Source: Paracoccaceae bacterium (GTDB lineage Bacteria > Pseudomonadota > Alphaproteobacteria > Rhodobacterales > Rhodobacteraceae). Taken from it: a stretch of 64,000 bases of DNA. Position 1 is the first letter of the stretch, and each line of letters starts with the position of its first letter. The position numbers and the translations under genes are program-made. Under the pieces are notes generated by a model that was given only the letters and a program-made list of their open reading frames with translations, was not told the DNA's origin and searched no databases. The DNA is taken from the NCBI GenBank assembly GCA_022448925.1, contig JAKVCP010000002.1, positions 3,630 through 67,629 of the forward strand, read 5' to 3'. This document shows positions 50,972 to 56,131 of this stretch, in pieces.

Positions 50972-50997
50972 AAAGGCCGCCCTGCCGGACGGCCTTT
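50972..50997 (-). terminator. Terminator hairpin after the sat-cysC fusion gene
   Basis: AAAGGCCG/CGGCCTTT is an 8-bp stem with a 10-base inner loop that can pair further (CC/GG). On the minus strand it is followed by TTT, G, TCGTTTT. It lies 25 bases after the fusion gene stop. Confidence 0.7.
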
Positions 50998-51021
50998 CAA
51001 TCATCTTTTGAACACGCCCCT

Positions 51022-53094
51022 TTACAGAGCGGCAATCAGACCCATGCTTTCGAGCTTCAAAATGACCTGATGGGCGCAGTTGTCGACATCGGTGCCCTCT
51101 GTCTCGACGCGCAGCTCGGGGTTCTCGGGCACATTGTAGGGATCCGAGATGCCCGTGAACTCCTTGATCTTGCCTTCGCGGGCCAGTTTGTACAGCCCTT
51201 TGCGGTCACGGCGTTCACACTCTTCGATCGAGGTCGCAACATGCACTTCCACAAAGGCCCCAAACGCCTCTACGTCTTCGCGCACAGCACGGCGGGTGGT
51301 GGCATAAGGCGCAATCGGAGCGCAGATTGCGATGCCGCCGTTTTTGGTGATCTCAGACGCGACATAGCCAATGCGGCGGATGTTCAAGTCACGGTGCGCT
51401 TTTGAGAAGCCGAGCTCTGACGACAGGTTCTTTCGCACCAGGTCACCGTCCAGCAAGGTCACGGGACGGCCGCCCATTTCCATCAGCTTGACCATGAGCG
51501 CGTTGGCAATGGTTGATTTGCCCGACCCCGAGAAACCGGTGAAGAACACGGTAAAGCCCTGTTGTGAACGCGGCGGCTTCGTCTTGCGCAGCTCTTTCAC
51601 GACTTCGGGGAATGAGAACCAGTCCGGGATCTCAAGGCCTTCGGCCAGGCGGCGGCGCAGTTCGGTGCCCGAGATGTTCAGGATGGTGACATTGTCACGA
51701 TCTTCAATCTCGTCGTTCGGTTCGTACTGGGCGCGCTCTTGCACATACACCATGTGTTTGAAGTCGACCATTTCGATGCCCATCTCTTCCTCGTGCTCGC
51801 GAAAGAGATCCTGGGCGTCGTAGGGTCCATAAAAGTCTTCACCCGCGCTGTTCTTGCCGGGGCCTGCGTGGTCGCGGCCAACGATGAAGTGAGTGCAACC
51901 ATGATTGGCGCGAATGATGCCGTGCCAGACTGCTTCGCGAGGGCCGGCCATCCGCATGGCAAGCGGCAACAGCGACATCGCAGTGGTCGCAGCCGGGTAT
52001 TTGTCCAAGACCGCCTCGTAGCAGCGCACACGGGTAAAGTGATCGACGTCCCCCGGTTTTGTCATTCCGACAACGGGATGAATCAACAGGTTTGCTTCGG
52101 CTTCGCGTGCAGCGCGAAATGTCAGTTCCTGGTGCGCGCGATGCAACGGGTTGCGGGTTTGAAAGGCCACAACCTTGCGCCAGCCCATCTTGCGGAAATA
52201 GGCCCGCAGTTCATTTGGCGTATCGCGGCGCGCCCGGAAGTCGTAGTGAACAGGTTGCTGTATGCCCGTGACCGGACCGCCCAGATACACCTTGCCCGCG
52301 GTGTTGTGCAGATAATTCACAGCCGGGTGCGCCTCGTCATCGGCGCCAAAGACCTTTTCGGCCTCGCGTGCCTTGTTTGGAACCCAGTTGTCGGTCACGG
52401 TCATCGTTGCCAGAATGACACCCTCCTGATCGCGCAGGGCGATGTCCTGGCCAGGCTCCAACGAACCGGCGAAGTCTTCGGTCACGTCCAGCGTGATCGG
52501 CATTGGCCACAGCGTTCCGTCAGCCAGGCGCATGTTTTCGACAACGCCGTCGTAATCAGCCTCGGTCAGGAACCCTTTCAGCGGGTTGAAACCGCCATTC
52601 ATCAGCAGTTCCAGATCACAGATCTGGCGGGGTGTCAGATCCCAACTGACGAGGTCGGCGGCTTCGACCTTCAGTTTTTGCGCGCTGTCGTATGAGACAT
52701 AGAGTTCGGGGATCGGGGCAAGGTTGTTCTGCATGAGTTTGGTCCTGTGTTTCAATGGATTGAGACCACTGGTTGTGCCGGTAAGTTCTGCGTGCAAGGC
52801 GTCGTATTCGGCGAATTTTCGGGCAAGAAATTGAGTGGTGAGACGGTTTTTTTCACCCGCCCCCCGTAGCGTGATCGCATAGGCGAATTTTTGGCGCTTG
52901 TCGGGGCTGTCGCGATCTACGATCTTGACAAAACCCGCATCGGTTGCGGCGCGAAGTTGCGCGTTGATCCGACCCAAAGAGACGTCCAGAGCCGCGGCAA
53001 TATCGCGCTGCGACGCGTCGGGCGCCAGTTCAAGCTGACGCAGCAGTCGAAAGAGCATATCCTGCTCGTCTGCTGATGCGGGCTTCATGGACAT
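51022..53094 (-). CDS. MarR-type winged helix fused to ATP sulfurylase and APS kinase
   Basis: The 690-codon frame encodes three parts. Residues about 1-105 (SQRDIAAALDVSLGRINAQLRAATDAGFVKI) match the MarR family described for EPS-associated regulators. Residues 121-510 are ATP sulfurylase, with QTRNPLHRAH (about 312-321) and GRDHAGPG (about 406-413). Residues 515-690 are APS kinase with P-loop GFSGSGKST (about 520-528). The last two make PAPS from sulfate. An internal ATG at 52734 (residue 121), preceded by AGGA, would give the usual 570-residue Sat-CysC, so one frame may yield one fused protein, a free enzyme, or both. Two GTTC-N6-GAAC palindromes lie upstream of the first ATG. Confidence 0.88.
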   Translation of the reverse strand: MSMKPASADEQDMLFRLLRQLELAPDASQRDIAAALDVSLGRINAQLRAATDAGFVKIVDRDSPDKRQKFAYAITLRGAGEKNRLTTQFLARKFAEYDALHAELTGTTSGLNPLKHRTKLMQNNLAPIPELYVSYDSAQKLKVEAADLVSWDLTPRQICDLELLMNGGFNPLKGFLTEADYDGVVENMRLADGTLWPMPITLDVTEDFAGSLEPGQDIALRDQEGVILATMTVTDNWVPNKAREAEKVFGADDEAHPAVNYLHNTAGKVYLGGPVTGIQQPVHYDFRARRDTPNELRAYFRKMGWRKVVAFQTRNPLHRAHQELTFRAAREAEANLLIHPVVGMTKPGDVDHFTRVRCYEAVLDKYPAATTAMSLLPLAMRMAGPREAVWHGIIRANHGCTHFIVGRDHAGPGKNSAGEDFYGPYDAQDLFREHEEEMGIEMVDFKHMVYVQERAQYEPNDEIEDRDNVTILNISGTELRRRLAEGLEIPDWFSFPEVVKELRKTKPPRSQQGFTVFFTGFSGSGKSTIANALMVKLMEMGGRPVTLLDGDLVRKNLSSELGFSKAHRDLNIRRIGYVASEITKNGGIAICAPIAPYATTRRAVREDVEAFGAFVEVHVATSIEECERRDRKGLYKLAREGKIKEFTGISDPYNVPENPELRVETEGTDVDNCAHQVILKLESMGLIAAL

Positions 53095-53122: not shown

Positions 53123-53168
53123 GTTCACGGATGAACGTATTGCACATAGAGTTCGTTCACAAAAGAAC
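53123..53168. promoter_or_regulatory. Two GTTC-N6-GAAC palindromes upstream of the MarR-Sat-CysC gene
   Basis: GTTC ACGGAT GAAC is at 53123-53136 and GTTC ACAAAA GAAC at 53155-53168. The centres are 32 bp apart, about three helical turns. They begin 29 bases upstream of the fusion start. The layout suggests autoregulation by the attached winged helix. Confidence 0.65.
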
Positions 53169-53340: not shown

Positions 53341-53679
53341 CTAGGCGCCGTACAAGCCCCATCCATCCGGAGTGAAGCCATGGGCAAGGCCCTCTTTTGT
53401 CGCGACTTCTTCGCCAATCCAGATCGACATGGCCGTTACGGCAGTCTCTGCCAACGTAGCGACGAGATATGCAGCCTCGTCCGGAGCGGCTGCCTCGATC
53501 CATTCACAGGCGTACCCGGCGTTGGACAAGGCGTCGGCCAAGGGCCGCCAGTCAGCGCTGTCTGATCCGGGAACAAGAAAATAGTCTATGTCGGCCTCGT
53601 CCGGCAGCCCATGGTCTGACGACAGTTCGGCGAAAGTTGCAAAGGTGTCTTTGCGCTGCGCGTCAAAATCATGGGCCAC
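53341..53679 (-). CDS. RraB-family regulator of RNase E
   Basis: The protein of about 112 residues matches RraB: DFDAQRKDTFATFAELSSDHGLPDEADIDYFLVPG and ADALSNAGYACEW. RraB binds RNase E and inhibits RNA decay. I chose the GTG at 53679, eight bases after AGGAG; a GTG at 53688 overlaps that site. It is coupled to trxB, whose stop it overlaps or abuts. Confidence 0.85.
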   Translation of the reverse strand: MAHDFDAQRKDTFATFAELSSDHGLPDEADIDYFLVPGSDSADWRPLADALSNAGYACEWIEAAAPDEAAYLVATLAETAVTAMSIWIGEEVATKEGLAHGFTPDGWGLYGA

Positions 53680-53684
53680 AGGGG

Positions 53685-54626
53685 TCACTCCTGTTCTGCC
53701 AGAAACCGCTCAGCCTCTAGCGCGGCCATGCATCCCATACCCGCCGACGTGACGGCCTGCCGGTACTTGTGATCGGTCAGATCCCCGGCTGCAAAAACAC
53801 CCGGGATCGAGGTTTCGGTGCTGTCAGGCTTGGTCACGACGTAGCCGCCCATATGGGTTTCCAGCACATCCTTGACCAATTCGTTCGCTGGCGCATGGCC
53901 GATGGCAACAAAAACACCTTTGGCCGGAATCTCAGTGAAGTCGCCGGTTTTCACGTTCTTGACCTTTACGCCCTCGACGCCCAACGGGGAGTCAGAACCA
54001 ATGACCTCTTCCAACTGATGGAACCACAAGGGTTCTATCTTTTCATTCTTGAAAAGTCGGTCTTGCAGGATCTTTTCTGCGCGCAATTCGTCGCGCCTGT
54101 GGATGAGTGTCACCTTGGAAGCAAAGTTCGTCAGGAACAGCGCCTCTTCAACCGCCGTATTGCCGCCGCCGATCACGACGATCTCTTGGCCGCGATAGAA
54201 AAAGCCATCACAGGTGGCGCAGGCCGAGACGCCAAAGCCCTTGAACTTTTCTTCCGACGGCAGCCCAAGCCACTTTGCCCGCGCGCCTGTCGCCAGAATG
54301 ACAGCGTCTGCGGTGTAGGTCGTGCCACTGTCGCCATGTGCTACAAAGGGCCGCTGATTCAGCTCAAGCGAGGTGATTATGTCGCCAATGATCTCTGTGC
54401 CCATCGCGCGTGCGTGGGCCTCCATGTTGACCATCAGGTCGGGGCCCTGAATTTCTGTATTCCCAGGCCAGTTTTCCACTTCAGTGGTGGTGGTGAGCTG
54501 CCCGCCGGGCTCAATGCCCTGAACAAGAATCGGGTTCAGCATTGCACGGCTGGCGTAAACACCGGCAGTATAGCCGGCAGGGCCGGAACCGATGATCAGG
54601 ACTTTGGTGTGGCGGGTCTGGGACAT
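53685..54626 (-). CDS. trxB: Thioredoxin reductase
   Basis: The 313-residue flavoprotein has the FAD motif [33 protein letters not shown], the redox pair CATC inside [13 protein letters not shown], the NADPH motif [14 protein letters not shown], and [31 protein letters not shown]. It transfers electrons from NADPH to thioredoxin. The ATG at 54626 follows AAGGAGGCTTCC; the frame is open to 54770 but without homology. Confidence 0.97.
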
Positions 54627-54838
54627 GGAAGCCTCCTTCAGCTTGCAGCGCATGTATAGGGCAAGCGATCCAAGTTCAATCCGCACAACGCCGACCCGCA
54701 CCGAGGGATTGACACAGATCAGCACGCCAAGATTGCAGGTGTTAGCGCAACCCCATTCAGATTCTTTCACAGAGTTGAAATATTATTGCGCGCCCAGGCT
54801 TTGGTGATATAACATCCGTAAATTCTTAGGAGTGACGT

Positions 54839-55342: not shown

Positions 55343-56131
55343 TTACAGGGTCAGGTTGTCGATGACCTCTCGCCGGGTGCGCGGGAAAATCAGGCCGCCG
55401 AATTCCTCGAACATCTCAATGCCCGGGAACATCGACAGAAACAGGGCTCTTACGTTGTGGCCCAGCGTTGGGTCGGCCAGCTTTCCGGGATGATAGGTTT
55501 CCACCTCCAAGCCGCTCAAAGTCACAGTGCTGTGATTGGCAAGGGCGAAATTGTACATCTGCACTGGGCTTGGCGGCGTGATGTCAAAGATACGGTCGCC
55601 ATCTGTGTAGTCCTGGATGGGCGCAAGGACTGCGCTTGCCCCAAGAAGCGAACGCAGCTTTTCGCGGCGGACAACCATGCGTGCGCCCGGCCCAATCAAA
55701 AGATCTGTCATCGGAGTGGCCGGGCCAAAAGCCTCGGCTGTGACGCGTGTCAGATGCGACAGGCAGGATACGTCCGCCGCGGTATTGGGGTAAAAAATCG
55801 TTGACCCGATCCATGTGATTTGCGCGGGACCATCACGGGTATCGACAATGTCACCGGGCAAAAGGTCTTCTATAGCCACTGGGCCACTTGGGGTCGCAAC
55901 CAGAGTCCCACGTGCAAAGGCGGCTGTTGCCTCCTCGAACAGATCTATCGCAGGAGCGACAAGCTGTTCATGTGACAGGGTGCCATCGCTTTTGAGAGCG
56001 GCGGCCTCGTATCTGCGCATGAGAGAGGTTTTGCGACGAGGCCGCCCGTCAGGACGAGAAAAATGTTCCCTAGGAACGTGGAGCGCACTCGTACGTGTCA
56101 CGCCTTCGGCGCGTGTATTTAGCCTAGCCAT
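55343..56131 (-). CDS. Hint-domain (intein/hedgehog-like) protein
   Basis: The 262-residue protein has a Hint module beginning AFARGTLVATPSGPVAIEDLLPGDIVDTRDGPAQITWIGS at about residue 72, with HLTRVTAEAFG and the C-terminal GLEVETYHPGKL. The usual nucleophile at the first position (Cys or Ser) appears as Ala or Arg in FARGT, so self-splicing is doubtful. An N-terminal basic stretch precedes it. Such proteins are common in roseobacters; some carry RTX repeats, which this one lacks. Function unknown. Confidence 0.8.
   Translation of the reverse strand: MARLNTRAEGVTRTSALHVPREHFSRPDGRPRRKTSLMRRYEAAALKSDGTLSHEQLVAPAIDLFEEATAAFARGTLVATPSGPVAIEDLLPGDIVDTRDGPAQITWIGSTIFYPNTAADVSCLSHLTRVTAEAFGPATPMTDLLIGPGARMVVRREKLRSLLGASAVLAPIQDYTDGDRIFDITPPSPVQMYNFALANHSTVTLSGLEVETYHPGKLADPTLGHNVRALFLSMFPGIEMFEEFGGLIFPRTRREVIDNLTL

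Follow-up and report, generated by a model that had tools for sequence, protein, structure and literature searches.

A MarR-ATP Sulfurylase-APS Kinase Fusion of Rhodobacteraceae with a Conserved Internal Start Codon and a Putative Autogenous Operator

Introduction

Trigger enzymes that carry a DNA-binding domain include PutA, BirA, and NadR. To our knowledge, no trigger enzyme of bacterial sulfate activation has been described, and we know of none in which a conserved internal start codon provides a form that lacks the DNA-binding part. In fungal ATP sulfurylase, the P-loop has been lost. This enzyme is described as a hexamer in which the kinase-like C-terminal domain confers PAPS-mediated allostery (PMC4220642). 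A fungal PAPS reductase is reported to activate transcription (PMC4848566). For Rhodobacter capsulatus, long and short forms of AerR have been described, the short form arising from an internal start and having a different regulatory role (PMC6199135).

The window analyzed here is a stretch of 64,000 nucleotides of Rhodobacteraceae DNA in which a MarR-type winged helix is joined in frame to a bifunctional ATP sulfurylase-APS kinase (Sat-CysC). No report of a MarR-ATP sulfurylase fusion was found in the open-access literature searched. The SAT of Ruegeria pomeroyi is listed in a table of sulfate-reduction genes in PMC9769926.

Results

Domain Architecture of the Fused Gene

The MarR-Sat-CysC gene is read in the window as a single frame of 690 aa with no internal stop at 51022-53094 on the minus strand, which would encode the long product. 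An in-frame fusion without a stop codon had been described in an earlier note, and it is confirmed here by matches of the frame to TIGR04176 and PRK05537. The stretch 52735-53094 (minus strand) encodes the EPS-type MarR winged helix, at about residues 10-105, and the linker. Residues 10-105 match TIGR04176 (MarR_EPS) with 84.7 bits in the whole protein and 89.3 bits when the N-terminal part is used alone, the curated cut-off being 88 bits; the fused relative from genome G210 scores 83.7 bits against the same cut-off. The N-terminal part also matches PF13412. The Sat-CysC enzyme occupies 51022-52734 (minus strand), and residues 119-688 match NF004040/PRK05537 with 1044.8 bits (cut-off 669) at model positions 4-571 of 572, so that by score the enzyme part belongs to PRK05537 over the full length of the model. 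Since the TIGR04176 match of the whole protein falls just below the cut-off and PRK05537 spans residues 119-688 only, annotation with these two models is likely to overlook the N-terminal part.

The best solved match of the enzyme part is of the fungal ATP sulfurylase type (1i2d/1m8p, 676.7 bits). The sequences QTRNPLHRAH, GRDHAG, and SGSGKST, which we take to be active-site motifs of Sat-CysC, are unchanged across 41 aligned rows, and both active-site motifs are thus intact. The predicted structure of the fused protein has a mean pLDDT of 58.2 and is poor outside the winged helix, for which the values are 80-89 per ten-residue block over residues 11-90, except for 64 at residues 61-70. The winged helix is the only usable part of this prediction. 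A terminator-like hairpin with a U-rich tail is located 3' of the fused gene at 50972-50998 (minus strand), with a fold z of -3.69; 1 of 200 shuffles was equally stable.

Genome Context

One match to the full protein was obtained in the genome of the window, and no other MarR_EPS domain appears there above the cut-off. A search for PAPS_reduct, which would also catch CysD, returned one member, CysH. This protein scores above the cut-off with PRK02090 and TIGR00434 (phosphoadenylyl-sulfate reductase) and below it with both specific models, APS_reductase (172.9) and PAPS_reductase (150.1). This genome, which is 91% complete, appears to have no ATP sulfurylase other than the fusion. The sulfotransferase fragment at position 1 of the window had been named as the only visible consumer of PAPS; the fragment itself is real (PF13469, E 3e-9), and CysH, which may act on APS or on PAPS, is a second possible consumer in the genome. 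On the minus strand between a trxB-like gene (53685-54770) and the fused gene, a small frame at 53341-53688 has a weak match to RraB (PF06877, 22.3 bits, below the cut-off). A Hint_2 domain protein (PF13403) is encoded at 55343-56131 (minus strand).

Distribution of the Fusion

A match to the full protein is present in at least 375 of 394 Rhodobacteraceae genomes. Profile A1, built from 28 fused MarR parts, matches at least 135 of the 394. With the fused type defined as an A1 score of at least 157 bits, 90 of the 394 genomes carry it among the matches listed. The open frame is at least 690 aa long in 88 of these and ends at contig edges in the remaining two. The other A1 matches among those listed are mostly stand-alone genes with frames of less than 230 aa, the exception being the gene of genome G296 (713 aa).

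The MarR-linker stretch was parsed together for 87 of the 90 fused-type genomes, and the remaining loci, L250, L267, and L269, were read separately. There are no stops in this stretch in any of the 87 or in the other three. The distance from AELTG to the API motif of the enzyme is 27 aa in all 87 parsed genomes. Stops or frameshifts between the two parts in relatives had been put forward in the earlier note as signs of two merely adjacent genes; the 90 fused-type genomes have no such stop, and a frameshift is found in one decayed relative (L116, see below). The median dN/dS, calculated from 1075 to 1458 of 1500 random pairs with dS near saturation, is 0.14 for the MarR domain and 0.27 for the linker. 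The frame is considered to be kept by selection because the fused type is recurrent and free of stops and the dN/dS of the MarR domain is low.

No fusion outside the family of the window was seen in the 385 genomes sampled from the class and the 378 sampled from the phylum; the fused cases in these samples (2 and 13 genomes, respectively) all belong to that family. Carriers among the best 80 matches include Leisingera, Shimia, Phaeobacter, Tateyamaria, Octadecabacter, Aliiroseovarius, and Maritimibacter. The record JAHVJD010000004.1 is titled Nocardioides marinus, and its fused gene groups with a Leisingera gene; it is probably a mislabeled or mixed assembly. In the enzyme trees, unfused Sat-CysC rows are interspersed among fused rows; one such tree contains 57 fused and 18 unfused rows, the latter drawn from among the top-scoring matches. 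Many branches are weak, but given this mixing the idea that the fusion arose once, with a clean history, was rejected. The fusion may have been repeatedly lost, transferred, or repeatedly gained, and recombination may also have contributed. Because the unfused rows are scattered among the fused ones, many relatives live without the control proposed below, which counts against it. Among the matches listed, Sat-CysC genes that match only after the MarR part (H1-H10) are plasmid-borne in Roseobacter litoralis, R. denitrificans, Sulfitobacter pontiacus, and others.

Internal Start Codon

The internal ATG at 52732-52734 (minus strand) is preceded by a Shine-Dalgarno sequence, AGGA, at 52743-52746 (minus strand), which consists of the arginine codon AGG and the following A and ends 8 nt before the start codon. 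The ATG at 52734 and its AGGA are as described in the earlier note, and they are now found to be kept in 88 of the 90 fused-type genomes. The presumed short product from this ATG is the Sat-CysC enzyme of 570 aa. For the comparison of codons, 110 fused loci were used; these are best matches, come partly from the same genomes, and contain 98 distinct linkers. The first linker parse covered 102 of the 110 loci and the codon counts cover all of them; one family read-out parsed 58 of 59 loci, and L244 was read separately.

The codon at the internal site is a legal start in 110 of 110 loci (ATG 102, GTG 7, and TTG 1). AGGA-N8-ATG/GTG/TTG is present in 88 of the 90 fused-type genomes (85 of the 87 parsed together plus the three read separately), and in the other two the exact AGGA is replaced by CGGA (L234) and AGGT (L264). 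A conserved in-frame ribosome site together with a start codon, as expected for a dual start, is therefore found in 88 of the 90 genomes. The arginine codon is AGG in all 110 loci, versus 30 of 5666 other arginine codons there (0.53%). The base after AGG is A in all 110, despite variation of the encoded residue (T 93, N 8, S 7, and M 2). Among 86 conserved degenerate columns, the codon entropy is below 0.3 only at the AGG column. Where valine is found at the internal start, the codon is GTG in seven of seven cases, versus 39% of other valine codons. L262 and L277 retain AGGA-N8-ATG at a shifted residue offset.

Duplex energies at the internal Shine-Dalgarno sequence average -4.27, versus -2.05 for the in-gene background, and 7 of the 110 loci are beyond the 5% tail. 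These energies provide moderate support for the internal start. For the presumed long start, the energies give no sign of a Shine-Dalgarno sequence above background (mean of -1.99, 1 of 108 beyond the tail). Since the frame and the internal start are both kept by selection, two products are argued for. From the conserved sequence features, the long form very probably exists and the short form is likely to be made in the cell.

Variant Loci

Two loci depart from the common arrangement. In L116 (genome G157, 80% complete) the end of the linker, the AGGA, and the ATG are retained, and they are preceded by a short, frameshifted MarR remnant in another frame, ahead of which the sequence is unrelated. 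No GTTC-type palindrome is present over 1186 nt upstream of this locus. The gene of G296 (L199, contig C156, frame from 2065) encodes a divergent MarR-Sat-CysC protein of 713 aa with a longer, different linker; it has two palindromes as well as a separate internal start, AGGA-N7-ATG, and possibly represents an independent fusion event. As judged from their sequences, both loci would fit the two-product autogenous model.

Palindrome Upstream of the Long Start

The palindrome GTTCACGGATGAAC is located at 53123-53136, just before the long start, and is the proposed operator. A second palindrome, GTTCACAAAAGAAC, is located 32 nt upstream of the first at 53155-53168. GTTC-N6-GAAC is found upstream of the fused gene in 109 of 110 loci, the sole miss (L063) being truncated by a contig edge. 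A dyad search using 99 of the 110 loci returned GTTC-N6-GAAC in 98; the top dyad count over 20 shuffles was 7 of 99. The exact GTTCA-N4-TGAAC is present in 107 of 110 loci and in 88 of 90 fused-type genomes; it is missing from L249, at a contig end, and from L171 (genome G081), which has GTTC-N6-GAAC forms with different inner bases. The median distance from the center of the palindrome to the first in-frame ATG is 26 nt in the 92 loci that have one and 35 nt in the window. A second GTTC-N6-GAAC appears 26-49 nt upstream in 26 of 109 loci, with a spacing of 32 in 17 of the 26. Column counts over 109 loci identify promoter-like blocks, which in the window are at 53139-53165 (minus strand): CTTT lies at -29 and TGCRAT lies at -8, counted from the operator. 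Because these blocks precede the palindrome by 29 and 8 nt, the transcript probably begins within or adjoining it. The palindrome was absent upstream of the 18 unfused sat-cysC genes.

With the strict pattern YGTTCAYNNRTGAACR, a site at the fused gene is found in 15 of 20 fused genomes; four have no site, and G081 has just one, located elsewhere. Away from the fused gene, 3 sites are present in 20 fused genomes and 3 in 20 unfused genomes, which is the background. There are seven exact GTTCA-N4-TGAAC sites in the genome of the window. One belongs to the fused gene and the other six are each within a Pfam-domain frame (DUF2852, Mg_chelatase, thioesterase, Tad, YhdP, and transglutaminase); a wider regulon in this genome was rejected on these grounds. 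An extra site, CGTTCATGAATGAACG, is found in G193 and G204 (L216 at 4702 and L217 at 4380), about 440 nt before an FAD monooxygenase-like gene; it may mark a second target, or it may belong to a gene that overlaps it. The conservation and placement of the palindrome suggest that it is very likely an operator bound by the MarR part. With an operator-like palindrome beside the start, the feedback circuit proposed in the earlier note is much more likely than could be argued there from the sequence alone.

Stand-Alone MarR_EPS Genes

The name of the TIGR04176 family implies a place in an exopolysaccharide locus. The upstream regions of 16 of the listed stand-alone MarR_EPS genes of Rhodobacteraceae (L200-L215) were scanned, and GTTC-N6-GAAC is found in 7 of 16 as an exact match and in 12 of 16 under relaxed matching, compared with 0.4% and 1.7%, respectively, in the shuffle control. 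Half-sites related to these, with looser spacing (5-8), appear at seven class-level MarR_EPS genes, a set scanned without a shuffle control. An ops-like GCGG[TC]AGC, which we take to be an RfaH-type recruitment element, is present upstream of 16 of 16 stand-alone genes; of the 110 fused loci, only 2 have GCGGTAGC in the 330 nt upstream. The GTTC/GAAC palindrome is likely a family-wide MarR_EPS operator that adjoins an RfaH-type element.

Discussion

The fused locus is probably one gene with two products under autogenous control. In the proposed mechanism, the winged helix of the long product, a 690-aa ATP sulfurylase-APS kinase, would bind GTTCA-N4-TGAAC at its own promoter and repress transcription. 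The short product of 570 aa would be the enzyme alone, initiated at the internal ATG via the conserved AGGA. The short form would add enzyme without adding repressor, and mixed assemblies of the two forms may occur. Through its ligand occupancy or its oligomer state, the enzyme part would inform the DNA-binding part of the state of sulfate activation. Since the fused gene is apparently the sole ATP sulfurylase and is followed by a terminator-like hairpin, repression would set the supply of APS and PAPS. The P-loop of the kinase is conserved here, and catalysis and sensing could thus coexist. Naming APS or PAPS as the signal is guesswork, and we regard it as somewhat doubtful. By analogy with fungal ATP sulfurylase, the sole enzyme could be a PAPS-sensing autorepressor whose mixed long and short oligomers read APS or PAPS via the kinase domain and set a single promoter; this version is tentative.

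A long form alone, with the AGGA acting as a translation pause site that aids domain folding, would accommodate the modest strength of the Shine-Dalgarno sequence. Internal Shine-Dalgarno-like sites have been proposed before as ribosome pause sites. Against it, a legal start codon stands at the fixed spacing in all 110 loci, and valine is encoded there by GTG in all seven cases, against 39% of valine codons elsewhere; this reading is unlikely. The frame might instead be shared by chance between two adjacent genes, with only the enzyme made from the internal start and the MarR part idle. The conserved internal start with its AGGA, the lack of a Shine-Dalgarno sequence above background before the presumed long start, and the frameshifted MarR remnant ahead of the retained linker and start in L116 are what this reading would expect. 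It is contradicted by the absence of stops in 90 of 90 fused-type genomes, the fixed distance of 27 aa, and the dN/dS values of the MarR domain and the linker. A separate MarR gene would also require a stop codon, and with no stop between the parts the MarR part is not translatable as a separate protein. The conserved open frame across the fused-type genomes led us to reject chance sharing, which is highly improbable.

Two further readings accept the fused protein and assign the palindrome or the winged helix differently. The protein might control mainly other genes, such as those of sulfation or exopolysaccharide, with self-control being minor. The nearest regulator family is called EPS-associated, and the CGTTCATGAATGAACG site is shared by G193 and G204, in both of which it has a matching context close to the FAD monooxygenase-like gene. 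The six other exact sites in the genome of the window are in Pfam-domain frames, and sites of the strict pattern away from the fused gene are as frequent in unfused as in fused genomes, both of which make this reading distinctly unlikely. Alternatively, the palindrome might be bound by another regulator, the winged helix having another role such as oligomerization. The palindrome tracks the MarR_EPS domain through the fused genes, the stand-alone genes, and the divergent G296 fusion, and it is absent before the 18 unfused sat-cysC genes; a different regulator is thus very unlikely.

If autogenous control by two products is correct, DNA binding would be built into a sulfate-activating enzyme, and one gene would combine the enzyme, the repressor, the operator, and a second start that sets the ratio. 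The model gives a testable account of how the supply of APS and PAPS is set in marine roseobacters, and it predicts GTTCA..TGAAC as the operator for the MarR_EPS family.

The whole enzyme part of the fusion is shared with PRK05537 Sat-CysC proteins, for which structures have been solved (2gks and 3cr8). Compared with fungal ATP sulfurylase, the fusion has an intact P-loop, a DNA-binding domain in front, and a second start. The stand-alone TIGR04176 regulators share with it the domain, the core of the recognition helix, and the upstream GTTCA/TGAAC half-sites; they differ in having an ops-like element upstream and no attached enzyme. AerR resembles the fusion in that an internal start leads to a short form, in a bacterium related to the fusion carriers, and differs in its two promoters, its CTG start, and its nature as a photoreceptor that acts through CrtJ (PMC6199135). 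Like the trigger enzymes and the fungal PAPS reductase, the fusion is a metabolic enzyme that would control transcription connected with its own pathway. On the sequence features described here, its expected mode of action is that of a trigger enzyme under the control of an autogenous operator.
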